A DNA stretch of 33,785 nucleotides, from the NCBI GenBank assembly GCA_030595125.1, contig JAUVDV010000058.1, positions 1 to 33,785 on the forward strand, in the 5' to 3' direction. Shown here one piece after another: positions 7,971 to 28,496 of the stretch. Origin of the DNA: Deltaproteobacteria bacterium (GTDB lineage: Bacteria; Myxococcota_A; Polyangia; JAAYKL01). Positions within the stretch are counted from its first letter, which is position 1. Each line of letters starts with the position of its first letter. Made by a program: the position numbers and the translations under genes. Below the pieces are notes generated by a model. The model made no database searches. It saw only the letters and a program-made list of their open reading frames with translations, and was not told where the DNA came from.

Positions 7971-8561
7971 ATGGAATCGTCAAACTCGAGAACCTGGACG
8001 GGGAGGGTAGGGAAGGTGGTCAACGACCTCGATCCTCGAACCGTGCGCCTGAGGGATCCTGGAGAGGGTCTCATCAAGCGGCCGGTTCTGGTTATTGTTC
8101 CGGTGGTGGCTTTCCTTGTCTTGGGCGCTGTGGCGTTCGGCGCAAGCGGCGGTGTTTCTCGAAACCCCGCAGTGGATGAAGACGTGGCGAAGATCGGATC
8201 GATCAATGAGGCAGTAGATACCGTCGCTCCTGTAGAACGTGTCGAGCCGACCATCCCGGATACAACGGCAAAAAGACCGATGAACTTCCACGATCCCCTG
8301 TACGTGTTCTGCGACGAAACCGCTTACAAAGTATCAGCCTATCCACTGGCCGATCCTCCGGGAGTGGTTGTAAACCTGGACGGTGTTCCAGAGCCCGAGG
8401 CAGACGCAAAGGGCATGGTGGGAAAAGATTCGAGGATCCGCGCGGTCCGACGCCGGGTCACGTCCACGGGAATACGCTATATTCTCCGGCTCGACACTCC
8501 CATCAGGCGGATCCGGATCATCCACGAAGGCGCCGTGATCATTATCTTGCCCGTCAGCTAG
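7971..8561 (+). CDS. Single-pass membrane protein with a C-terminal AMIN-like domain
   Basis: A 196-residue protein. A basic cytoplasmic segment (about 37 residues) precedes one membrane helix at about 38-57 (RPVLVIVPVVAFLVLGAV), then a linker, then a domain from about 115 reading VVVNLDGVPEPEAD, SRIRAVRRR, RYILRLDTPIRRIRI, HEGAVIIILP. That pattern of beta strands matches AMIN domains, which bind peptidoglycan and localise PilQ and cell-wall amidases. Topology would put it in the periplasm. No ribosome site is seen, consistent with a leaderless mRNA. Its last 8 bases overlap the 3' end of pyrE on the other strand. Whether it partners PilQ, which carries two AMIN domains in this window, is speculation. 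Confidence 0.72.
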   Translation: MESSNSRTWTGRVGKVVNDLDPRTVRLRDPGEGLIKRPVLVIVPVVAFLVLGAVAFGASGGVSRNPAVDEDVAKIGSINEAVDTVAPVERVEPTIPDTTAKRPMNFHDPLYVFCDETAYKVSAYPLADPPGVVVNLDGVPEPEADAKGMVGKDSRIRAVRRRVTSTGIRYILRLDTPIRRIRIIHEGAVIIILPVS

Positions 8562-9195
8562 CGCCGCCCCTTTCTGAAGACCATGCGCTCGGATCGCGCT
8601 GCCATTCGGCGATAATGGCCTTTTGTGATGCTGAAAGTGAGCCTGCGGCACGCGCCTCGTCCATGAGCGCGTTGAAGTTGGTGAGGGAGGATAACCGAAT
8701 TTTGGCCTCTTCAAATCTGCTGGCCGCCACCGGGAGCCCGTAGGTGAAGATCGCCGCCACGCCCAGCAGCGCGCCTCCCGCGTCGATGACCGCTTGCGCC
8801 GCATCGAGGGAGCTTCCGCCGGTGGAGATGAGATCCTCGATCAGCACGACCCTCTTGCCGCTGTCGAGTTTCCCCTCGATTCGATTTCCCTTGCCGTGTC
8901 CCTTGGTGGCTGATCGCACGTAGATCATCGGAAGGTCCATGAGATCGGACACCCACGCCGCGTGGGGAATTCCCGCCGTGGCGGTTCCGGCTATTACCTC
9001 GGGTCGCCAGCCGTTGGCCTCGATCATCTCGACGAAGGCCGCCGCCACCTGCTTTCGGCCCGAGGGCGCCGACATGATCAGGCGGTTGTCGCAGTAAATC
9101 GGTGAAAACCTGCCCGATGCCCACGTGAACGGCGGCTCAACCCTCAACGCCACCGCGCCGATATCCATCAGGATCTTCGTGATGTCTCGCTCCAT
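8554..9195 (-). CDS. pyrE: Orotate phosphoribosyltransferase
   Basis: PyrE joins orotate to PRPP to give orotidine 5'-monophosphate in de novo pyrimidine synthesis in the cytoplasm. The PRPP-binding loop is VVLIEDLISTGGSS at residues 116-129. The orotate/PRPP contact segment YVRSATKGHGKGNRIEG is at 92-108, and FTWASGRFSPIYCDNR near the start is typical. Length 213 is normal. The start at 9195 is favoured by GAGGAG five bases upstream. An in-frame ATG at 9237, inside the MITE-like element, would add 14 residues and is judged secondary. Before the element inserted, this gene would have started 13 bases after the stop of the gene at 9370-10242, so it was probably the last gene of that operon. 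Confidence 0.96.
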   Translation of the reverse strand: MERDITKILMDIGAVALRVEPPFTWASGRFSPIYCDNRLIMSAPSGRKQVAAAFVEMIEANGWRPEVIAGTATAGIPHAAWVSDLMDLPMIYVRSATKGHGKGNRIEGKLDSGKRVVLIEDLISTGGSSLDAAQAVIDAGGALLGVAAIFTYGLPVAASRFEEAKIRLSSLTNFNALMDEARAAGSLSASQKAIIAEWQRDPSAWSSERGGAS

Positions 9196-9211
9196 TTCCA
9201 CTCCTCTTTTA

Positions 9212-9369
9212 GAGCCTATCTCAGTAGGCACTCCCATCGCCTGGCAACCGATCCACTTCGCATTGCTGCGTTTCTCCTCCGCGCCTTGCCACCAGCAAGG
9301 CTTGTCGTCATGCCTTGCACAGCTCGTGCCTCGAATGCCATGCTCGGTCCGGCCTACCGGGATAGGCTC
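9212..9369. mobile_element. 158-bp MITE-like element with terminal inverted repeats and TTA duplication
   Basis: The ends are inverted repeats: GAGCCTATCtcaGTAGGC at 9212-9229 and its partner at 9352-9369, matching at 16 of 18 positions. The unit is flanked by TTA at 9209-9211 and 9370-9372, a 3-bp target duplication. A central hairpin GCCTTGC/GCAAGGC (9283-9289, 9295-9301) lies inside. No protein is encoded. GAG-starting ends plus a T-N-A target resemble IS1031-like members of the IS5 family, so a non-autonomous relative mobilised in trans is likely. The right-hand TTA is also the stop codon of the neighbouring minus-strand gene. Confidence 0.75.
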
Positions 9370-10242
9370 TTAGTCAGAAGGCCGATCATATCTGATCAGA
9401 TCGAACGTGATCACCTTATTTTTATTTGGGGTCGGATATTCGACACGTCGTCGTACGATGCCGATTCCCTTTGCCATCCACGTGGTTTCGAAGCGGAACG
9501 GCTCCGTCGTCAGGCCGGCCAGCACAGTTCTTGCGCCGGCCCGCAACTCCAGGCGCCCGAGCCAGTCGATGCGCAGCGCATCGAAGCGTCCGGCGGCTAC
9601 GATGACAACCTCCATCTCGCCCACCATCGCGCGATCGACCTGCTCCCCGACGGCCTTCTGCATGTGTGTCACGCCGTGTTTGTCGGGAGACTCGTGGACC
9701 ACATCCCGCTTGTAAATGTGCTTCCATACCGCGCCTTCGATCATGGCCGAAGAAAACGGCAGAAAGGAGCCGTCAACCGCAGTGGGCCGGTTGCCGCGAA
9801 ACTGCAGCGGTTCCACGAACGGCAGGCCCTCCAGAGAAATGGACTCTCCCTCTTTCCACACTCCGTACGCCAACATCTCTTCGCCGAACCCCATCTCGAT
9901 CTCGCCTGGTTTTTCATCGGCGGGAACGCGGGTGATTTTCATTGACCAGGTTTTTGCCAGGTTCAGATCGTCCGGACCCTCCACCTTGTAGATCCACTCG
10001 CTCCCTTCGACCAGCGGCCAGAAGAGATGTTCAACCCCCTTCGCCGGCTTCGCAGCGCCGGGTCGTATCTGTTTGTTGATGGTCAACGGTTCCGCAGAAC
10101 TCAAATCGGGCTCGCCGCGAGCTTCAGTTTGTGTGGAATCTTCGTCTTTGAGATTCTCTTCCTCGCCGGTGGGCAAGAGGGCAGCGGCGACGAGGGCCAC
10201 CGCCACTACCAGCAGAAGGATATCTCTGGCCCTTGATGACAT
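9370..10242 (-). CDS. Predicted exported or membrane-anchored protein, unknown
   Basis: A 290-residue protein with an N-terminal hydrophobic segment (ILLLVVAVALVAAALLP) that is a signal anchor or signal peptide without a lipobox Cys. An acidic, Thr/Ser-rich linker follows to about residue 65. The folded part begins LFWPLVEGSEWIYKVEG and continues with alternating beta strands (MEVVIVAAGRFDALRIDWLG, FETTWMAKGIGIVRRRVEY). This pattern is seen in secreted 'DUF3108-like' beta-barrel proteins, but the match is only by eye. It lies 32 bases downstream of the lipoprotein at 10275-11117, probably in one transcript. Its TAA stop is one copy of the MITE target duplication. Confidence 0.7.
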   Translation of the reverse strand: MSSRARDILLLVVAVALVAAALLPTGEEENLKDEDSTQTEARGEPDLSSAEPLTINKQIRPGAAKPAKGVEHLFWPLVEGSEWIYKVEGPDDLNLAKTWSMKITRVPADEKPGEIEMGFGEEMLAYGVWKEGESISLEGLPFVEPLQFRGNRPTAVDGSFLPFSSAMIEGAVWKHIYKRDVVHESPDKHGVTHMQKAVGEQVDRAMVGEMEVVIVAAGRFDALRIDWLGRLELRAGARTVLAGLTTEPFRFETTWMAKGIGIVRRRVEYPTPNKNKVITFDLIRYDRPSD

Positions 10243-11197: not shown

Positions 11198-14100
11198 TCA
11201 GGTGCCGATACTCTCGGCTCGGTTCACGATACGAGGCGTAATGAAGATCAGCATCTCAGAACGCCTGTCCGAATCGGAGCGGCTCTTGAACAGCCACCCG
11301 AGAATCGGGATGTCTCCAAAGAACGGAACCTTCTTGTAGCTCGTACCGTGGTTCCGCGTATAGATTCCGCCGATAACCGCTGTATGGCCGTCCGCCACGA
11401 GCAGCTCCGTATCCGCTTCACGCTTGAGGATCGTGGGATCACCGCGAGCGCCCTTGTTGTTGAAATCGGGTTCGTCCCTGGTCATCTTGATCTTCAGGAG
11501 CACCGATCCGTCGGCGGTCACGTGGGGCGTGACGGTGAGGTTCAGCTTGGCTTCCTTGAAAGCAGTCTGGATACCCTGCGCGGATATTCGGCTGTACGGG
11601 ATGAGTGTGCCCTGCTCGATGTGAGCCTGGCGGTTGTCCAGGGTCAGGATCTTCGGCGAACTCAGGATTCTCAGGGTACCCTCTTCTTCCATCGCCGAAA
11701 GCCTCAGGTTGAGGTTTGCGTTGTTGGCGATGGAGCCCAGGGTGATACCGAGTGCACCACCGGACCCGGTGCCCGCCGCTGCGGGCAGGTTGACCGCGAA
11801 GTTGGGATTGGGTCGTCCGCCCGCCACCGGGCTGAGACCGCCCACCGGCGTCTGGTTGTCGGTTGCGCCACCGGCCACGCCGACGGTGCTGGGGAACGCG
11901 AGACCTGTGGGGTTGGCGGTGGCCGCGCTGGCCGAGAAGTCGCCGCCCCACTGAATACCGATCTCGCGGGCGTATGTGCTGGAAGCCTCTACTATGCGGC
12001 CCTCTATCAGGACCTGCGGGGTCTGGGTATCCAGGTTGCGGATAAGTGCCTCTATCTGATCCAGGTTGGACACGGTATCCCGAGCGATGATTACATTCGT
12101 TCGGCTATCCACAGAGAGCTTCCCGCGATCGGAGAGCAGATCGTCCGCCCGGGGCTGCAGCTCTCCTGCCTGGGCGTAGGATACCGGGATGAGGCGCGTC
12201 TCGAGTGGCTCCAGGGCCTTGCTCTGCTTGCGCCTTGCGATCTCCATTTCCCGCTCCTTTTCGAGAGTTGCCAGGGGCGCCACTCGAATCAGGTTGCCAT
12301 CGCGCACCATGCCAAGCTTCTTGGCCATCAGGATGACGTCCAGCGCCTGATCCCACGGCACGTTTCGCATCCTGATGGTGACCGATCCGCTCACGTCGTC
12401 AGCGGTGACGATGTTCACATGACCCACATCTGAAAGGAGTCTCAGAATGTTGTGTATATCCGCATCCTTGAAATCGAGGTCAATTTTGCGACCTGTGAAT
12501 TTCTTCTTTTTGAATTTCTTCTTCTTGAGCTTGACCGCGTATGCCGCCGTGCGGTCCATGGGATAATCGTATGCGCTCGCGTCCTCGCGATCGATGGTTT
12601 TGGAGTTGGCTCCCAGCGGGGTGATCTTCTTGTCCTTGACCTCGGGCTTCCTGGAGTTGGCGGTAAAGATCCACTCGATGGTATTGCCGTCTTGTCGGAC
12701 AATGTTCTTCGCCGTCTTGCCCAGCGCTACTTCGAATTTTACGTCATCGCCGACCTTATATGAGCTGATGCGATCGATGGCGCCTCCGAAGTCGGTCACA
12801 TCGAGAGTGCGCTCCAGCAATGGACCAAGATCGGTGCCGTTGAGCACCAGCGCGGCTTTCTTCTTCCCGTTTTTGGATTGCTCGATTTTTATGTCGCTGT
12901 TTGTGGAAATCAGGATCTTCTGTACCGAACCCTCGTTCACGAAACGGATATCCGTTACTGCGGAGGCGACGGTTGCAGATTTCTTGCTGTCCTGCGAGGC
13001 GGCCGTCTTGTCCCAACCGCGCATCTGCGCCAGACGCAGCAACCTGAGATCCTCCTGCGTCATACTCTTGTTGCCCGCAGCCTTGACCCTCGCATTTTCT
13101 GCTCTCATGCGGGTCTCGCGCAACGTGCTTATCTCCTTCTTCTGGTCCGCTATTGTGCTGTTGGCTTTCGAAAGCTCGGTGTTCGCGGCAAGAATGCGCT
13201 CATCGCTGCCCTTCAGCTTGCGCTTTGTGTTTTTGAGATTGTCCTTCGCACGGGCAACGCGCCTGTCACGATCGGCAATCTCCTTCTTCGCGATTTCCAG
13301 TTCGGCTTTCGACCGGGTAACGAGTTCGTCGCGATCGGCAATCTCCTTTTTCGCGATCTCCAGTTCCGCTTTTGCCTGAGCGACGCGCTCGTCACGGGCC
13401 TTCAGCTTGCGTCGTGCGCTTTTGAGATCGTCCTTCGCACGGGTAACGCGCCTGTCGCGATCGGCAACCTCTTTATTCGCGATCTCCAACTCCGACCTGG
13501 ACAGGGCATTACGTGAATCGCTGTTCTTTAACTTGCGCTTGACGCTCCAGAGATCCTTCTTCGCACTGGTAACGCGCTTTTCGTGTTCGGTAATCGCCTT
13601 TTTGGCGATCTCCAGCTCCGCTTTCGCCTGGGTGACGCGCTCGTCGCTGCCCTTCAGCTTGTGCTTTGCGCTTTTCAGATCATCCTTGGCGCGGGCAACG
13701 CTATTGTCGCGATCGGTGATCTTCTTGCGAGCGTTTGCCAGCTCCGCCTTCGACAGGGCAACACGATTGTCGCGATCGGCAATTTCCTTCTTTGCAATCT
13801 TCAGTTCCGTTTTGGACAGGGCAACACGCTTGTTACTATCTTCAAGCTTGCTCCTTGTGTTCTCGAGATCAGCTTTCGCCACCGCAGCCATCCTGCTCAC
13901 TCGCCGGGCCCGTGACTTGGCCACGCGGATTTCGCGCTCGGAGAAAGCCAGCTTGTCCTCCAACGTCGAGACCACGTCGTTGGCCTTTGCGATTCGGCCC
14001 TCGAGATCCCTGAATTTCTTCTCGGATTCGCTACGCGCCTTTTGCGCCTTTGCCATTCTCTCGATAGCAGCGGCGACCTTCTCGGATGCCTTGGCATCCG

Positions 14101-15454
14101 CCCGAGATCCCTTCAGATCGATCTTCTTCTTGAGCCGGGCTACTTCTTCTCGTTCATCTTTTTTTGCCAATTCGGCCCTGGCCGCCCGAGACATCGCTTT
14201 TCGCTTCGCGGCATTGGCCTGCTCGCGCATTTTTTCGGCTCTTGCCAGGTTCCTGCGCGCCCTGGTCTCCATTTGGCGCTGCTTCTCTTCTAATTGCTTG
14301 ACCGTCGCGTTCGCCACGCGCAGCGCTTTTTCGGCCTTCGCGACTTTCTTGTCCGAAAGATCCCTGGCCTGCTCGGTCGAAGAGAGGCGTCGTTTGGCCT
14401 CGACCGTTTCCTTTTCCCGGCGCTTGAGCACCTTGAGCAATTCGGCCTTTTCTCCTTCTGCCGCCTTCTTGTAGGCAGATGAAGCGTCCTTCTGTGCGTA
14501 AAGCGCCTTCCGTGCCTCCTTCTTGGCTGCCGACGCTGCCAGGGCTAGAACTTCCATGTCTTCCTTGAGACTATCGGCCCTGTTCCTGGTGTCATCTCTC
14601 GATGCCACGACAGTTTCCGTCTGAGTTCGGACGACCTCAATCTCCTCATTCACTAATCGCAGTTTCTTCTCCAGGCGCTCACGCTCGACCTGCTCAACCT
14701 TCGCGACTTTTCGCGCACGCTCGATCTCGTTTTCCAGTCTGGCGATCTTTTTTGAAGCCTGCCTGGTAGCCTTTTCAAACTTGGTCTTCTTCAATTCGTC
14801 GCGCTTGTCCTGCTCCAGGCGGGCCTGCTCCAGAGCTGCCTTTGCGGCCTGCGCCTCATGCCTGGCCTTCTGTGCCTGTGAATTGTTTTCAGCGCTCAGG
14901 GCCTTCATTCGTTCGATCTCCCTGATCGCCTCGATCAGTTTTTCCTGAGCGTTCACCGTCTGCGCTTTGGCCGCAGCCATCTCGATCTCGTCGGAGGTCG
15001 TCTTCGAGTTCTCCTCCACGGCTTGCAAGGGAGCGCCCGACATCGAGATGACAAGGGTCTTCCCCTTCACCTTGACGCGGTAGGCGGCCTCCTTTTTGAA
15101 ATTTATCATCACCCTGGCCACCGGAACTCCACCGGTGGAGAACTGGGACACAGCCACGCCCTCAACCAACGCGGTGGATTTGTCCAGCACGGATGGCACC
15201 CCTTTAATGTTACTGTTGGCCAGATCAACCACCAGCCTTTTGGGGGAGGACAACTTGAACGCGGTGTATGTCGGTCGCTTGGTTCCGACCACTGTGATGA
15301 TGGTCTTCCCGGCTGACTGACTGACCTGGATCTTGCGAACCTGGTTTGAGTCACCTGCCTTGTCCGCGGTGACGATTCCGGCGAACAGCACTACCGCGAG
15401 CGCAACAATCGACGCCCTTGCCAATTTATTAAGTCGTTGAATGGACCGTTTCAT
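11198..15454 (-). CDS. pilQ: Type IV pilus secretin PilQ with giant internal coiled coil
   Basis: PilQ forms the outer-membrane channel through which the type IV pilus passes. Here it has 1418 residues against roughly 700-900 in most relatives. Domains: signal peptide 1-30; first AMIN domain about 41-138; coiled coil about 153-795; second AMIN domain about 825-930 (AVTDIRFVNEGSVQKILI); Lys-rich linker with KKKKFKKKKF; secretin N0/STN from about 988 (IDLDFKDADIHNILRLLSDVG); N1 from about 1083; and the secretin core about 1150-1413 (VLIEGRIVEASS, VPFFGDIPILGWLF). The start at 15454 has AAGGAG upstream and gives a clean signal peptide. It lies 124 bases after pilP. The coiled coil is Ala/Lys/Arg/Glu-rich and includes eleven exact-length 21-residue repeats. 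The secretin domains look intact, so the protein is probably functional. Confidence 0.96.
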   Translation of the reverse strand: MKRSIQRLNKLARASIVALAVVLFAGIVTADKAGDSNQVRKIQVSQSAGKTIITVVGTKRPTYTAFKLSSPKRLVVDLANSNIKGVPSVLDKSTALVEGVAVSQFSTGGVPVARVMINFKKEAAYRVKVKGKTLVISMSGAPLQAVEENSKTTSDEIEMAAAKAQTVNAQEKLIEAIREIERMKALSAENNSQAQKARHEAQAAKAALEQARLEQDKRDELKKTKFEKATRQASKKIARLENEIERARKVAKVEQVERERLEKKLRLVNEEIEVVRTQTETVVASRDDTRNRADSLKEDMEVLALAASAAKKEARKALYAQKDASSAYKKAAEGEKAELLKVLKRREKETVEAKRRLSSTEQARDLSDKKVAKAEKALRVANATVKQLEEKQRQMETRARRNLARAEKMREQANAAKRKAMSRAARAELAKKDEREEVARLKKKIDLKGSRADAKASEKVAAAIERMAKAQKARSESEKKFRDLEGRIAKANDVVSTLEDKLAFSEREIRVAKSRARRVSRMAAVAKADLENTRSKLEDSNKRVALSKTELKIAKKEIADRDNRVALSKAELANARKKITDRDNSVARAKDDLKSAKHKLKGSDERVTQAKAELEIAKKAITEHEKRVTSAKKDLWSVKRKLKNSDSRNALSRSELEIANKEVADRDRRVTRAKDDLKSARRKLKARDERVAQAKAELEIAKKEIADRDELVTRSKAELEIAKKEIADRDRRVARAKDNLKNTKRKLKGSDERILAANTELSKANSTIADQKKEISTLRETRMRAENARVKAAGNKSMTQEDLRLLRLAQMRGWDKTAASQDSKKSATVASAVTDIRFVNEGSVQKILISTNSDIKIEQSKNGKKKAALVLNGTDLGPLLERTLDVTDFGGAIDRISSYKVGDDVKFEVALGKTAKNIVRQDGNTIEWIFTANSRKPEVKDKKITPLGANSKTIDREDASAYDYPMDRTAAYAVKLKKKKFKKKKFTGRKIDLDFKDADIHNILRLLSDVGHVNIVTADDVSGSVTIRMRNVPWDQALDVILMAKKLGMVRDGNLIRVAPLATLEKEREMEIARRKQSKALEPLETRLIPVSYAQAGELQPRADDLLSDRGKLSVDSRTNVIIARDTVSNLDQIEALIRNLDTQTPQVLIEGRIVEASSTYAREIGIQWGGDFSASAATANPTGLAFPSTVGVAGGATDNQTPVGGLSPVAGGRPNPNFAVNLPAAAGTGSGGALGITLGSIANNANLNLRLSAMEEEGTLRILSSPKILTLDNRQAHIEQGTLIPYSRISAQGIQTAFKEAKLNLTVTPHVTADGSVLLKIKMTRDEPDFNNKGARGDPTILKREADTELLVADGHTAVIGGIYTRNHGTSYKKVPFFGDIPILGWLFKSRSDSDRRSEMLIFITPRIVNRAESIGT
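13148..13840 (-). repeat. Eleven tandem 63-bp (21-residue) coiled-coil repeats in pilQ
   Basis: Eleven consecutive units of exactly 63 bp, 21 residues (three heptads) each, with no indels, at about residues 539-769 of PilQ. Two flavours occur: one with KAELEIAKKEIAD-like ends and one with KDDLKSAKRKLK-like ends, mostly alternating. DNA copies differ at many synonymous positions, so the array is old rather than a recent slippage product. The 21-residue spacing keeps the heptad register. Confidence 0.9.
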
Positions 15455-15480
15455 TGTCCTCTCCTTGCCATTGCCAACAC

Positions 15481-15519
15481 CCACGCCACCTCACATGTGA
15501 GGCGGTGTGGATTATTGTA
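15481..15519 (-). promoter_or_regulatory. Near-perfect palindrome and possible -10 upstream of pilQ
   Basis: A 30-bp palindrome (15481-15510) with a perfect 14-bp centre CCTCACATGTGAGG and one mismatch plus one G-T in the arms lies 27 bases before the pilQ start. A TACAAT hexamer (15519-15514, minus strand) directly upstream could be a -10 box, which would place the palindrome over the transcription start. It could be an operator or an mRNA 5' hairpin. No good -35 is visible. Confidence 0.5.
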
Positions 15520-15578
15520 CACCCTTATCCTACACGCACACCTCTACCGAGTACAAATTTTTGGCGTTTTTTTTTAGA

Positions 15579-16232
15579 TTAGTTGGAATGCAGGGGCATG
15601 AAACGAGTGATATCTTCGGGGGTTTTGGTCAGGGGATCGTCGCGGACCAGATAAATTCCCCGCTCCTCTTCCTTGCCGGTACCGTGGATGCGGGCAACCC
15701 GCCAGTTGACTTGAATTTTGTCTCCGCCGGCGCCGGGATCCACGAAATCCGCCTTGCCGACATAATCGCCCCGGCGAAGCACGATCCCCTCTTTTGCGGG
15801 AGTCACGACCATGGCCCGCGGATCACCGATGTTTGTGATGATCGCGATGAGCTTGAGTTCGGCCACATCGTATTCCTTGAGCTTGATCTCGCGCTGGACA
15901 GTCTTCCGGATCTCTTCCTGATTGACCACGACTTCGATATGTGCCCTGAACGGATCGCGATGCTTGGCGCCCTCGATGAAATCCGTTTCCGAGAGCTTTG
16001 GGAGAACCATGGCGCCGAGTTTTCCCTTGGCGGTGGGGGCTTCAACCAGTCCGGCGCCTTTTTCCGCGATTTTTTTCTTTGCTTCAATGGAAGACATCCC
16101 GGGGCGGGCGCGCCCTCTGCCCGGTTTTCGGTAAGTCTCCTCGTCGTCTCCACAGCCGGACGAAAACACGGTTGCGGCCACGAAGACAACCGCGAGCACC
16201 ATGCTGGCTTGTCTCTTTGAAGTGAGGAACAT
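15579..16232 (-). CDS. pilP: Type IV pilus lipoprotein PilP
   Basis: PilP is the inner-membrane lipoprotein that links the PilN/PilO ring to the PilQ secretin. This 217-residue protein has a signal peptide ending in SSGC, a low-complexity basic linker (YRKPGRGRARPG), and then the PilP core: HRDPFRAHIE, LKEYDVAELKLIAIITNIGDPRAMVV, and GIVLRRGDYVGKADFVDPGAGGDKIQV, which is the usual 'DPF...EL.L.G...A.V..p.g....v..Gd.iG' pattern. It starts two bases after the pilO stop and its ribosome site lies in the pilO 3' end (AAGGAG). Confidence 0.94.
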   Translation of the reverse strand: MFLTSKRQASMVLAVVFVAATVFSSGCGDDEETYRKPGRGRARPGMSSIEAKKKIAEKGAGLVEAPTAKGKLGAMVLPKLSETDFIEGAKHRDPFRAHIEVVVNQEEIRKTVQREIKLKEYDVAELKLIAIITNIGDPRAMVVTPAKEGIVLRRGDYVGKADFVDPGAGGDKIQVNWRVARIHGTGKEEERGIYLVRDDPLTKTPEDITRFMPLHSN

Positions 16233-16234
16233 TC

Positions 16235-16825
16235 CTACTTCTTCTCCTTCTTGCCGTCCCTGGGCTGCACCGAACGGAAAGTCGTGGCGAGCACCTCGGC
16301 CGTCAGCACGATTCCGGAATCATCCATCTCTCCGCCGCCCAGGTTGATGTCCTCGATGTTGATGATCCTTTTCAGGTTGCCCACCAGATAGAAAAATTTG
16401 GATATCTGATGAAAACTGCCGCGAAGCTTGAGCTGGACCGGGATTCTTGCGTAGTACCTCGCCGGCTCTTCATCGAGGGGCTTGACCGACAGGATCTCCA
16501 GGCCAACGAGCTCGGCCTGGGCATTGAGATTGTTGAGAAACGACGCCATCTCCGAATCGGGCGGAAGCATCTGGAGTTGTTTGGAGGAAGACTTTGACAA
16601 CTCGGCGTGTTTTTGGCGATCCGCCTCGTAGGTCTTTTTTGTTTTCTCCGCCTGCGCGAGATTCTTGACCAGGGAATTGTGCTTTTTCTCGAGGCGATCG
16701 AGATCCTCCGATATTGGACTGTAGAAATTGAACCAGAAACCGGCACCAAGCAGCACCGCGAAGAAGGCGAGGAAGAACACCTTCTTTGCCACGGGCATCT
16801 TGGTCAGTTTCTCTACAACGCTCAT
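16235..16825 (-). CDS. pilO: Type IV pilus inner-membrane protein PilO
   Basis: PilO pairs with PilN to form the periplasmic alignment ring of the pilus machine. The 196 residues show a short cytoplasmic tail, one membrane helix at about 14-33 (KKVFFLAFFAVLLGAGFWF), a coiled coil (SEDLDRLEKKHNSLVKNLAQAE), then the ferredoxin-like domain with LPPDSEMASFLNNLNAQAELVGLEILSV split from IPVQLKLRGSFHQISKFFYLVGNLKRIINIEDI. These are typical PilO segments. It lies 12 bases after pilN and 2 before pilP. The C-terminus is Lys-rich. Confidence 0.94.
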   Translation of the reverse strand: MSVVEKLTKMPVAKKVFFLAFFAVLLGAGFWFNFYSPISEDLDRLEKKHNSLVKNLAQAEKTKKTYEADRQKHAELSKSSSKQLQMLPPDSEMASFLNNLNAQAELVGLEILSVKPLDEEPARYYARIPVQLKLRGSFHQISKFFYLVGNLKRIINIEDINLGGGEMDDSGIVLTAEVLATTFRSVQPRDGKKEKK

Positions 16826-16837
16826 TGCGCTTCCTCG

Positions 16838-17500
16838 CTATTTGTAACGTACCTTGCCGTCAATTACGAAATGAACTACAGCGTCAGCATCCTGGGATTC
16901 GAAACTATCACTGGGGATCCGCGGTTGAGCCAGGTTGGTGGAGACGAGATCGCTCGACACGAAGAAATCGGAGAGGTTCAGTCTCCTCAGAAACTCCGCC
17001 ACGTCCTCATGGGTGAGGCCCTGACCCGTCAACCTGACGACCCGATCTTTTTCCTTGAACGTCTCCAGCCAGAGCATTCGATAATCCCAGCCCTCGTCGA
17101 GAGCCAGCGCCGGGTTCGCCTGGATCTTCTGCTGGTATTTGTCGTGATTGAAGTTCGGTTTCCCGCCCTTGCTCAGGATGGCAGACAATTCGAGCATAAC
17201 GAAGACAGGGCCGGAGCGGGCTGCCTGAAGATCGTCGATGGAGGCCTGACGTTTTTCGTAGTCCTCTATTTCCGAAAGTATGCGCTTGTGATCCTTGACC
17301 TGCTTCTTGATCCGATCCACCTGCACAGTGATTGCGTTGTTGGCGTTCTTTTGCGCGTCCAGTTCGGCGGAGGTGTTCAGGTAGATGACCGTGAACGCGA
17401 CCAACTCCACCGCAATGATAAGGATCCCCAAAAGAAGCTGGTTGCGCCCCGTCTCTCTGCGTCGTTCCTGTTTGACCGGCAAAAGGTTGATCCTGAGCAT
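16838..17500 (-). CDS. pilN: Type IV pilus assembly protein PilN
   Basis: PilN is a bitopic membrane protein whose cytoplasmic N-terminus docks on PilM. The motif INLLP at residues 4-8 is the known PilM-binding peptide. A membrane helix follows at about 21-43, then a coiled coil (DRIKKQVKDHKRILSEIEDYEKRQ) and a ferredoxin-like periplasmic domain with DRVVRLTGQGLTHEDVAEFLRRL. Length 220 is normal. The ATG abuts the pilM stop with no spacer, indicating translational coupling and a matched PilM:PilN supply. Confidence 0.94.
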   Translation of the reverse strand: MLRINLLPVKQERRRETGRNQLLLGILIIAVELVAFTVIYLNTSAELDAQKNANNAITVQVDRIKKQVKDHKRILSEIEDYEKRQASIDDLQAARSGPVFVMLELSAILSKGGKPNFNHDKYQQKIQANPALALDEGWDYRMLWLETFKEKDRVVRLTGQGLTHEDVAEFLRRLNLSDFFVSSDLVSTNLAQPRIPSDSFESQDADAVVHFVIDGKVRYK

Positions 17501-18562
17501 TCAGATCTTCTCCTTTTGCTTTCGGAGAGCCAGCCCGAGGCAGATGGACGCCTGAGGCGCCTGAAGCTTCAACTCTTCCGGATTGAATTGACGATCGTCG
17601 AATAGTACCCGCCTGAAAGGATCGAGGAGTTCCACCGGCGCTCTTGATCGGCGCTCGATCGCCGTCCGAAGATCGGGGATCTTGGCGGTCCCTCCGGAAA
17701 TGTATATCCGCTCAACCTCGCCCCGATTGGTGGTGGCAATGTAGAAATCGAGTGAACGCTGGATCTCGCCCGCGATGGCCTCGACAACACCGGAAATTAT
17801 CCCGTCCACCTCCTGTGGAATCACCTCGTGCGAGTGCAGTCCGCCGCCGGCCTTGTAGGATTCAGCTTCATCGAAACTCACCTGAAGCTGTTTCTGGATC
17901 TCCTCGGTGATGGAGGAGCCACCGTTTGTAATGTCGCGGGTGAACTGAGATACGGCCCCGTGCACGATGTTGACCGTCGTGATCTCGGCGCCCACATTGA
18001 GGAGCGCCACGGTTTCGTTTTCATTGAATCCGTAATTTAACTCATACACGTTTTGAATGGCGAACGCGTCGATATCTACAACAATGGGTTTCAGTTTGGC
18101 TTCCTTGACGACTTCGACAAGATCCTGGATCTCATCTTTTTTCGCCGCCACGAGAAGTACGTCCATCTGACCCAGATCCTGATTTTCCCACAGGATATTG
18201 TAATCTATCTCGACTTCCGAAATGTCGAAAGGAATATGCTGCTCGGCCTCCCACTGAATCTGCTCCTCCAGCTCATCTTGCTTCATGAGCGGAAGGTTCA
18301 GCTTCTTGATGATCACCGAGTTGCCGGATATGGAGAGTCCGACCTCCTTCTGAGATATTCGAAGATCTGAAAACACTTTTCTCAACGCATCCACGACCGC
18401 GCCGCTGTTCATCACGTGACCGTCGACGATGGATTGTGGAGGGAGGGGTTCCACTCCGTACTTCAGCAGGTGGATACCTTTTCCGGATTCCTTTACCTGA
18501 ATTACTTTAATCGCGGAGGTTCCAATGTCGACGCCGACCAGGTTCTTTCCCTCGAAACTCAT
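17501..18562 (-). CDS. pilM: Type IV pilus assembly ATPase-fold protein PilM
   Basis: PilM is a cytoplasmic actin/FtsA-like protein that binds PilN and couples the motor to the periplasmic ring. The 353-residue sequence has the ASKHA phosphate loop VGVDIGTSAIKVIQVKE at the start, QIQWEAEQHIPFDISEVEIDYNIL in the middle, the second phosphate motif VALLNVGAEITTVNIVHG and the adenosine motif IYISGGTAKIPDL near the end. It follows the XRE regulator gene with no spacer and abuts pilN, so the three genes are tightly coupled. Confidence 0.96.
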   Translation of the reverse strand: MSFEGKNLVGVDIGTSAIKVIQVKESGKGIHLLKYGVEPLPPQSIVDGHVMNSGAVVDALRKVFSDLRISQKEVGLSISGNSVIIKKLNLPLMKQDELEEQIQWEAEQHIPFDISEVEIDYNILWENQDLGQMDVLLVAAKKDEIQDLVEVVKEAKLKPIVVDIDAFAIQNVYELNYGFNENETVALLNVGAEITTVNIVHGAVSQFTRDITNGGSSITEEIQKQLQVSFDEAESYKAGGGLHSHEVIPQEVDGIISGVVEAIAGEIQRSLDFYIATTNRGEVERIYISGGTAKIPDLRTAIERRSRAPVELLDPFRRVLFDDRQFNPEELKLQAPQASICLGLALRKQKEKI

Positions 18563-26233: not shown

Positions 26234-26334
26234 GCCTTATTGCCTCGCGAGGCACGCGATGAAGTAGCCGTCGGTTCCGTGCGCGCTGGGATCGACGAAG
26301 GGCAGGCCGCCTCGCCATGGGATCGAGTCTGGCC
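26234..26334 (-). pseudogene. Duplicated 3' end of rsmB (remnant)
   Basis: 26247-26334 matches 27181-27268, the tail of rsmB, at 85 of 88 bases. In the rsmB frame it still reads PDSIPWRGGLPFVDPSAHG and then TDGYFIACLARQ before a TAA stop (26234-26236). One difference from the intact gene is silent (CCA/CCG) and one codon gives Ala instead of Val. The copy has no start and cannot make a protein. It lies on the far side of the DUF4405 gene from rsmB, 934 bases from its match, and its LARQ-stop ending looks more like the natural C-terminus of RsmB than the FSGC extension now present. Confidence 0.85.
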
Positions 26335-27158: not shown

Positions 27159-28496
27159 TTAGCAACCTGAAAATCGCCTGGCGAGGCACGCGATGAAGTA
27201 GCCGTCGGTTCCGTGGACGCTGGGATCGACGAAGGGCAGGCCGCCTCGCCACGGGATCGAGTCTGGCCACGTTGACGGAGGATCGCGGACGGGTTCGAAT
27301 CCGGGATGCTCCTCCAAAAATCTCTCGATCTGTTTTTCTCCCTCTTCTTTGAGAATCGAGCACACTGCGTATACGAGCCGTCCGCCCTCGGCTACGAGAG
27401 GCGCAACGCTATCAAGCATGGCGCGCTGAACACTCACGAGAGAGGCCACTTGATCCGGTGAAAGTCGCCAGCGGATCTCGGGTCGCCTGCCCAGGGTTCC
27501 GGTCCCGGAGCACGGCACGTCGAGAAGGATCCTGTCGAACGGGCCCTCCAAGGCCCCTTTGCCCGCCTGGAGATCCACCACAACGGTGTTCGCTGAAAAC
27601 CCCTGGCGGTTCAACTCGAAGGCCGCGCGATCGAGCTTGCTCCGGCTGCGATCTGCAGCTGTGATTTCGGCCCTGTCGCCGGCGAGCATCGCGATGGTCC
27701 CGGTTTTGCCGCCCCTCCCCGCGCACGCGTCGAGAACCTTTGATTCTGGTTTGGGGTCGAGGGCCGCAACGACCAGTCCCGCCCCCTCGTCCTGATACGC
27801 GGCGAGCCCCTCTTCTTCGATCGTTCTCCCGTCGCGCCGGTCGCTAACGTTGATTGACCACGGCAGGCAGGGGCCCGGCGACGCACTGTCTGAAAGTCTC
27901 TTGAGGAGATCGGCTCTTGTGATCCGCGATGTGTTGACTCTCATGGTGCGTGCGGATCTGTCGTTGAAGATGCGGGCGATGGCCAGCGCTTCTTTTGTTC
28001 CCCGATCGTCGATCCACCGGGCGAGCAACCATCCGGGAAGCCCGTAACGCAGGGCCAGTTCTTCCACTGAAGCGCCGTCGTCGTCCGCAGGAGGCCGCAG
28101 GGCATCGGGTTCCCTTGCTGCCAGATTCCGAAGCAGCGCGTTCGCCAGCCCGGAGAGCCTCGGTGCAGCAGAACGTTTGACGGAGGACACGGCCTCGAAA
28201 ACCGCCGCCCTCACGGGGATTCGATCCAGATAGGCTATCTGGTACGCCCCTATACGGAGGATGTTGCGCACGGTGACGTCGAGCTTGCGGAGGCTTCCCC
28301 CCGACGAGGCCGAATCGAGAAGATGGTCGAGCCACGGGCGTCGTCGAAGGACGCCGAGAACCAGCTCGGTTGCGAGCGAGGAATCCCGTTGGTCTTTCAG
28401 GGTTGCCGCCTCGGATTCGAGAACCGCCGCCGCGAAGGCCCCGTCCCGCTCCACGCGGTCGAGCACCTTGCGCGCAACATCTCGAGCCGAAGCCAT
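27159..28496 (-). CDS. rsmB: 16S rRNA (cytosine-967-C5) methyltransferase RsmB
   Basis: RsmB methylates C967 of 16S rRNA using S-adenosylmethionine. The 445-residue protein has the N-terminal NusB-like RNA-binding domain (about 1-150; RNILRIGAYQIAYLDRIP), the SAM-binding motif LDACAGRGGKT, motif IV DVPCSGTGTLGRRPEIRWR with its Cys near 328, and motif VI YAVCSIL with the catalytic Cys near 377. Motif VI more often reads YATCS. The last residues FSGC replace the expected short end, because the 3' end appears to have been rebuilt by the event that placed the DUF4405 gene here. The ATG is two bases after the rseP stop, so the two genes are probably cotranscribed. Confidence 0.95.
   Translation of the reverse strand: MASARDVARKVLDRVERDGAFAAAVLESEAATLKDQRDSSLATELVLGVLRRRPWLDHLLDSASSGGSLRKLDVTVRNILRIGAYQIAYLDRIPVRAAVFEAVSSVKRSAAPRLSGLANALLRNLAAREPDALRPPADDDGASVEELALRYGLPGWLLARWIDDRGTKEALAIARIFNDRSARTMRVNTSRITRADLLKRLSDSASPGPCLPWSINVSDRRDGRTIEEEGLAAYQDEGAGLVVAALDPKPESKVLDACAGRGGKTGTIAMLAGDRAEITAADRSRSKLDRAAFELNRQGFSANTVVVDLQAGKGALEGPFDRILLDVPCSGTGTLGRRPEIRWRLSPDQVASLVSVQRAMLDSVAPLVAEGGRLVYAVCSILKEEGEKQIERFLEEHPGFEPVRDPPSTWPDSIPWRGGLPFVDPSVHGTDGYFIACLARRFSGC

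Follow-up and report, generated by a model that had tools for sequence, protein, structure and literature searches.

An IS5-type MITE at a stop codon upstream of pyrE and the 20-bp remnants of its family

A 158-bp sequence with no coding capacity for a transposase separates pyrE from the gene upstream of it in a deltaproteobacterial contig, and it lies between two TTA triplets, one of which coincides with a stop codon. This raises the questions of whether a mobile element landed there, what the insertion did to the two genes, and what becomes of such insertions in related genomes. We analyzed these questions in a window of 33,785 nt (the whole stretch of DNA under study; assembly GCA_030595125.1, contig JAUVDV010000058.1, here genome G000) together with related genomes, among which G001 and G002 belong to the same genus and G007 belongs to the same family.

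The element between pyrE and its upstream gene

An earlier note, made from the sequence alone, had read the 158 bp as a MITE between TTA copies, one of them being the TAA stop of the upstream gene. Both points were borne out: the element has 18-bp terminal inverted repeats with two mismatches between them, it has dispersed copies and an empty site in relatives, and the minus-strand ORF at 9370–10242 ends exactly in the second TTA copy. The features of the locus are as follows, with the IS5-type MITE at 9212–9369 and, including the flanking TTA copies, the whole insertion at 9209–9372.

8554–9195, minus strand: pyrE, orotate phosphoribosyltransferase, from its native start (ATG 9193–9195; TIGR00336)
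9201–9206, minus strand: native pyrE ribosome-binding site GAGGAG, assigned by eye, outside the element and identical in G001 and G002
9209–9211, no strand: target-site duplication TTA on the pyrE side; a single such triplet (TGA there) in the empty allele of G001
9212–9369, no strand: MITE, 158 bp, multicopy in relatives
9212–9229, plus strand: terminal inverted repeat, "A" end, GAGCCTATCTCAGTAGGC, a quasi-palindrome GCCTA...TAGGC
9214–9218, plus strand: micro-repeat GCCTA, outer copy, partner of 9352–9356
9225–9229, plus strand: micro-repeat TAGGC, inner copy, partner of 9363–9367
9235–9237, minus strand: in-frame ATG inside the element, a potential 14-residue extension of PyrE, without a good ribosome site by eye
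9352–9369, minus strand: terminal inverted repeat, "B" end, GAGCCTATCCCGGTAGGC
9352–9356, plus strand: micro-repeat GCCTA, inner copy; deletion between this pair would leave 20 nt
9363–9367, plus strand: micro-repeat TAGGC, outer copy; deletion between this pair would likewise leave 20 nt
9370–9372, minus strand: target-site duplication TTA, the TAA stop of the upstream gene
9370–10242, minus strand: upstream gene, 290 aa, whose product has no Pfam or NCBIfam match

Twelve of 38 relatives, all from the same genus or family, gave a match to the upstream gene, and in 11 of these 12 it adjoins pyrE on the same contig and strand (in G004 the two genes are on different contigs); therefore, the pair looks like an old operon. 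Excising the element and one TTA copy leaves 13 nt before the pyrE ATG (9196–9208) with GAGGAG kept, as the earlier note had stated, and its view that neither gene was damaged also holds, given that the upstream stop and the pyrE ribosome-binding site are both retained. The gene-strand RNA of the element is predicted to form one long hairpin of −79.9 kcal/mol compared with a mean of −55.7 kcal/mol for shuffled sequences (z = −5.5), and none of 200 shuffles matched its stability.

The further proposal that the insertion changed transcription and translation of pyrE found no support. Patterns for sigma-70-like promoters and intrinsic terminators gave no match in 9150–9450, leaving a promoter or terminator supplied by the element unsupported, and with the native ribosome site intact, pyrE can still be translated from its own start. 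By lying between the upstream stop and that start, the hairpin would end any coupling of the two genes. The suggestion that an ATG at 9237 could extend PyrE by 14 residues stood in part, in that this codon is in frame and the frame is open for 14 residues, but its ribosome site is weak by eye and its use found no support. In 10 of 13 family relatives, the PyrE alignment begins at native residue 1, in a comparison whose query could not show a longer N-terminus, and the in-frame ATG is probably unused. Taken as a whole, the analysis confirms the observation in the earlier note; the interpretation given there is largely correct, although only partly supported overall.

Copies in other genomes and the search for a partner IS

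Matches to the element with an e value of 0.001 or better were present in 8 of 96 genomes, G000 included, when at most eight candidates per genome were scored. Scoring all candidates in four genomes, we found nearly full copies in G001 (two), G002 (three), G007 (five, with further copies cut at contig ends) and G009 (one), which answers the earlier note's call for a search for other copies; the pyrE copy is the only full one in G000. Public genome contigs, scanned for one end together with a short motif downstream of it, yielded six stretches, which comprised two on contigs of the same genus (G002:C89 and G001:C174), one in a Planctomycetota MAG with a similar end, one in a Proteobacteria MAG with a 20-bp palindrome, and those of Serratia symbiotica and Pluralibacter (Enterobacterales), in which an end of this kind belongs to a different element. 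On the Proteobacteria MAG contig (L269, 2376–2400), the palindrome GAGCCTACCGGGATAGGCTC lies about 60 bp from another end-like sequence.

The same-family genome G007 carries a 923-bp IS5-family IS (L250, 1050–1972) that has TAA on both sides and ends reading GAACCTATCCCAG... Its two overlapping frames match DUF4096 (PF13340) in the first and DDE_Tnp_1 (PF01609) in the second, the IS5-family model NF033580 spans both, and all three models score over their cut-offs. The transposase is split into frames of 145 and 158 aa (L250, 1125–1968), which may reflect programmed frameshifting or a broken gene.

With the second ORF of L250 as query, relatives were found in G007 only among 20 genomes, and none were found in G000. 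The nine DDE_Tnp_1 loci of G000, a genome that is 95% complete, were rejected as partners because none has a pair of such ends, and rescanning these loci with the full 18-base ends gave only single loose matches at the chance level of 0.9 per 3 kb. No DDE_Tnp_1 match is present in G001, and 18 of 19 transposase loci of G002, G007, and G009 were rejected as well; among the rejected loci, L251 of G002 has two loose end-like matches, but both fall within its 468-aa ORF. At the DDE_Tnp_1 loci of the draft genomes G000, G001, and G002 no IS with such ends was found, and by this search the MITE family of these three genomes looks orphaned. The search for an IS5/IS1031-type transposase with matching ends, which the earlier note had proposed, thus gave a nearly matching IS in same-family G007 and none at the DDE_Tnp_1 loci of G000.

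Bacterial MITEs that are mobilized by IS5-family (IS1031-type) transposases are known, and the IS1031-like subgroup is defined by GAG ends and a 3-bp TNA target. In the family described here, the ends are GAG or GAA and the targets are mostly TAA or TTA but also TTG, CTG, and CTA, that is, YTR. The element shares with those MITEs its short, noncoding sequence, its inverted repeats, a 3-bp TNA-like duplication, dispersed copies outside called genes, and an IS with nearly the same ends within the family; it differs from them in that no partner IS was found in the window's genome and in that a large share of copies is reduced to a 20-bp remnant. The properties by which bacterial MITEs are recognized are present in that the element is short (158 bp) without a transposase gene, has terminal inverted repeats and multiple dispersed copies, and shows a target-site duplication by comparison with the empty allele (TAA twice in G000 vs. 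a single triplet, TGA, in G001). In G000 itself, no IS sharing the ends and target of the element was found at the DDE_Tnp_1 loci, and we keep the name MITE because a MITE family can outlive its partner IS. The transposase of the candidate partner is of IS5 type (NF033580, PF13340, and PF01609 in the L250 ORFs). An IS with GA(A/G)CCTATCCCAG ends exists in a same-family genome, and we infer that the G000 copy is a MITE that would have been moved in trans by a transposase from that IS or from a lost relative of it.

In the portions of PMC2229807 and PMC2759123 drawn on here, the Correia, RUP, ERIC, and YPAL repeats are likewise small nonautonomous hairpin-forming repeats, but they have other ends and targets (mostly TA), and these portions mention no uniform collapse to 20 bp.

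Empty, full, and scarred alleles

At the pyrE site, the genus shows an empty, a full, and a scarred allele, each in a different genome. The full allele of G000 reads TAA, 158 bp, TAA, and 13 nt. The empty site that the earlier note had proposed to look for in related genomes is found in G001, with the predicted 13-nt spacer containing the same GAGGAG followed by ATG and with the stop TGA instead of TAA. In G002, the site consists of TAA, the 20-bp palindrome GAGCCTACCGGGATAGGCTC, TAA, and the same 13 nt.

Simple deletion of the G000 copy that kept its B end would give a palindrome whose loop is the reverse complement of the one in G002. Therefore, either G002 once carried a copy inserted the other way round or a flip of the palindrome or of the element took place; the G002 scar, not being a simple deletion of a G000-like allele, requires an insertion event of its own or the inversion of either the element or the loop. 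Identity at the pyrE locus is 90.0% between G001 and G002 and 88.1–88.3% for the other pairs, and over nine other loci the three genomes are about equidistant at 89.4–90.0%. The loop orientation and these near-equal distances therefore make two independent insertions at one stop codon a live possibility. That copies inserted in opposite orientations at the same pyrE stop in G000 and G002, with the G002 copy then collapsing, is a contender to which we give somewhat less than even odds: besides the opposite loops, it would fit with the slightly higher identity of G002 to the empty-site genome G001 than to G000 at this locus and with the family lying on stop codons more often than expected (see later), but one insertion suffices if the 6-nt loop, or the element between its ends, then turned around, and the near-trichotomy of the three genomes is compatible with more than one branching order.

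Remnants of this kind are not confined to pyrE. Four of 20 genomes contain the exact pattern GAGCCTA-N6-TAGGCTC, at 11 sites in total (one in G000, two in G001, seven in G002, and one in G007); a reversed-pattern control gave no site in any of the 20. At 17 of 42 loci with element ends, representing 16 distinct sites, the remnant is clean, measures exactly 20 nt, and is bordered on either side by target-like triplets (YTR or YAR). Remnants of other lengths also exist (22 nt and about 35–68 nt), and two remnants, one of them of the 22-bp type, are common to G000, G001, and G002. Our literature search (titles and starts of abstracts in openly licensed PubMed Central) found no description of uniform 20-bp MITE scars, and the parts of PMC6382973 and PMC3119063 drawn on here contain nothing on them.

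Comparison of alleles with relatives took in 19 sites, about half of which were unclean against at least one relative. Empty alleles are 161 nt (158 + 3) shorter at three full copies, namely G002_C128, which is empty in both relatives; G001_C365, which is empty in G000; and G001_C69, whose empty counterparts lie in three places, two elsewhere in G001 and one in G002, and are apparently paralogous. At scars, empty alleles are 23 nt (20 + 3) shorter for G000_C25 in both relatives, for G001_C50 in G000 (G002 has the same scar), for G002_C264 in G000, and for G002_C10 in G001; for G001_C128 the difference is 23 nt in G002 and 22 nt in G000. Differences of 22–25 nt that are not exactly 23 nt were obtained at G002_C65, C29, C216 (vs. 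G001), and C185 (vs. G001). Among the other comparisons, G000_C30 had no usable alignment, G002_C178 was 31 nt shorter, G002_C3 was 19 nt shorter in G001 and had an unalignable right flank in G000, and G002_C288 faces other DNA in the relatives. Against G000, G002_C216 was 36 nt shorter, G002_C89 could not be compared on its left flank, which was lost in G000, G002_C10 showed an apparent local tandem duplication, G002_C113 faced 35 nt of unclear sequence beginning GAGCC, and G002_C185 faced a diverged 20-nt remnant.

Full and scarred alleles of one site are seen at two sites, pyrE and G002_C113/G001_C495. At the latter, a 159-bp element in G002 stands at the same place and in the same orientation as GAGCCTGCTGGGATAGGCTC in G001, and this scar matches the right end of the full copy, variant base included. 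The counterpart of the full G001_C365 site in G002 has just GAAC between two TTA copies, matching the unusual GAACC start of that element.

The uniform length of the scars is predicted by the element itself. When the element and its flanking triplets are searched for direct repeats of 5 nt or more whose span is 100 nt or more, just two pairs emerge, GCCTA (9214 and 9352) and TAGGC (9225 and 9363), and both pairs predict a remnant of exactly 20 nt. These micro-repeats exist because the inverted repeat is itself quasi-palindromic, so that the inner arm of each repeat duplicates the outermost bases of the opposite end. Deletion between them (5 nt, or 7 nt with one mismatch) would remove 138 bp and leave a 20-bp scar between the target copies. 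The clean scars end in TC (13 of 17) or AC (4 of 17). In the five intact copies of the same scan, the sequence runs on into AC or GC at one end and into CG at the opposite end; a TC scar therefore has the inner side of one repeat fused to the outer tip of its partner.

Tn10 undergoes nearly precise excision by deletion between short repeats located at the base of a hairpin. The part of PMC12524634 drawn on here describes it as copy choice between short direct repeats, citing d'Alencon et al. What the alleles suggest for the present family is an event of the same kind, a deletion between short direct repeats inside inverted-repeat ends that leaves a short remnant and keeps the target copies. 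It differs from Tn10 in that the repeats, 5 nt long or 7 nt if one mismatch is allowed, are part of the 18-bp inverted repeat and in its 20-bp remnant, which is present in natural alleles across the genus. The scars are best read as near-precise excision, as for Tn10, between micro-repeats that form part of the inverted repeats, most likely by slippage across the hairpin during replication.

With a probability of about 0.8, we conclude that a nonautonomous IS5-family MITE inserted at the TAA stop of the upstream gene, duplicating TAA, and that copies of this family can collapse to a 20-bp scar by deletion between the micro-repeats. With the upstream stop and the pyrE ribosome site retained, both coding regions remained whole. 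An unlikely alternative for the scars is transposase- or IEE-dependent excision that joins both ends, instead of passive slippage; IS-excision-enhancer (IEE) systems exist, and the junction of one inverted repeat with the outer end of the other, seen in the 13 TC scars with TC at neither inner end of the five intact copies, is what such a process might produce. However, scars are frequent in G000–G002, where no partner IS was found, the exact palindrome occurs only once in G007 despite the IS and five nearly full plus contig-edge copies there (several short partial G007 matches being left out of this count), and the micro-repeats alone predict the 20-nt length. We regard it as highly improbable that the 20-bp palindromes are mobile units themselves, or a separate small element, and not collapsed MITEs: the G000_C25 scar does face exact empty sites in both sister genomes, and other scars face an empty site in one sister with no full allele seen, but a full allele is present at two scar sites, at one of which the scar matches its end, 20 bp is too short for two separate 18-bp ends, and the 4-nt footprint in G002 opposite G001_C365 suggests loss from a full copy. 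A conserved regulatory pyrE leader (attenuator or riboswitch) in place of a mobile element, which the very strong hairpin and its position directly before pyrE might have suggested, is rejected as next to impossible, the sequence being missing from G001, only 20 bp long in G002, and present at other sites with 3-bp duplications, with no Rfam match in 9000–9600 up to an e value of 1 and no terminator-like site.

Stop codons as landing sites

Genes around the collected sites were called with a home-made caller (668,810 bases in 41 sequences, 545 genes). None of 36 collected elements lies inside a called gene, and 9 of 26 TAA/TTA-flanked elements lie exactly on the stop codon of one. Counting distinct sites, 7 of 24 TAA/TTA sites are on a stop codon compared with 101 of 1,699 (5.9%) noncoding TAA/TTA triplets (P = 4e-4), in a post hoc test that was devised after the pattern had been seen and applied to a hand-collected set. 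Seven other nulls (including same genus only and sequence context) gave expectations of 6.7–12.0% and P values from 0.0007 to 0.02, the last from the strictest. Three second copies of one site were removed from the count, and G002_C127, G002_C273, and G001_C39 never entered it. It also leaves out longer partial copies (C171, C288, and C153 of G002; C174, C9, and C243 of G001; C81 of G007; and C275, C87, C227, and C21 of G009), the contig-edge copies of G007 (C194 included), C203 and C179 of G000, and short partial matches that were not fetched. The simplest reason for the excess would be that the TNA-like target matches TAA and TGA and that its duplication restores the stop, so such insertions survive and copies would persist at gene ends.

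More interesting than the insertion itself are the collapse of the family to 20-bp remnants and the stop-codon excess. A tentative generalization, which we hold slightly more doubtful than not, is that the family is gene-neutral twice: its target restores stops, so it accumulates at gene ends, and its quasi-palindromic repeats make every copy prone to collapse, without a transposase, to the same 20-bp scar. If this is true, uniform scars are strewn over the genomes of the genus as a record of earlier insertions, and new hairpins at operon junctions could arise from them. The empty, full, and scarred alleles in three genomes show the life cycle of a MITE, from insertion and the splitting of an operon to collapse to a remnant of fixed size, and such collapse offers an origin for short dispersed palindromes in bacterial genomes. 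They also provide a sequence rule, by which an inverted repeat whose inner arm repeats the opposite terminus predicts MITEs that leave uniform scars, and a reason why stop codons may be favored landing sites of TNA-targeting elements.

A parallel is found in Enterobacterales, where an element resembling that of Pluralibacter, with the same type of ends, is present in 5,375 of 5,426 Escherichia coli genomes at a median of five places. One copy of about 143 bp (L282, 600–742) lies between the pheM leader and pheS and may resemble the repeat called RSA; a literature search for the name of this repeat gave no result. At least 80% of a 550-bp stretch around it is held by 4,749 of the 5,375 matching genomes; among the 40 matches listed, 35 hold the whole stretch, about 145 bp is missing from four, and one is a match to a small piece only. 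Two of those four genomes were fetched, and both have an empty site. The pheM-pheS element resembles the pyrE one in its end GAGCCTATCCCATCAGGC, its TAA flank, its position in the spacer before an operon gene, and an empty allele in some strains, but it differs by eye in internal sequence and, in the two strains fetched, shows the empty allele only and no 20-bp scar. It is possible that this element affects pheST expression.

Two further observations concern other parts of the window. A minus-strand gene run at 11198–18562 resembles pilM, pilN, pilO, and pilP by eye and includes a 1,428-aa PilQ-like secretin with a very long, charged, repetitive insert. A 96-nt direct repeat with 95% identity is present at 26239–26334 and 27173–27268; it repeats the 3' part of the ORF at 27159–28496 at a distance of about 930 bp, in what seems to be the partial duplication of a gene.
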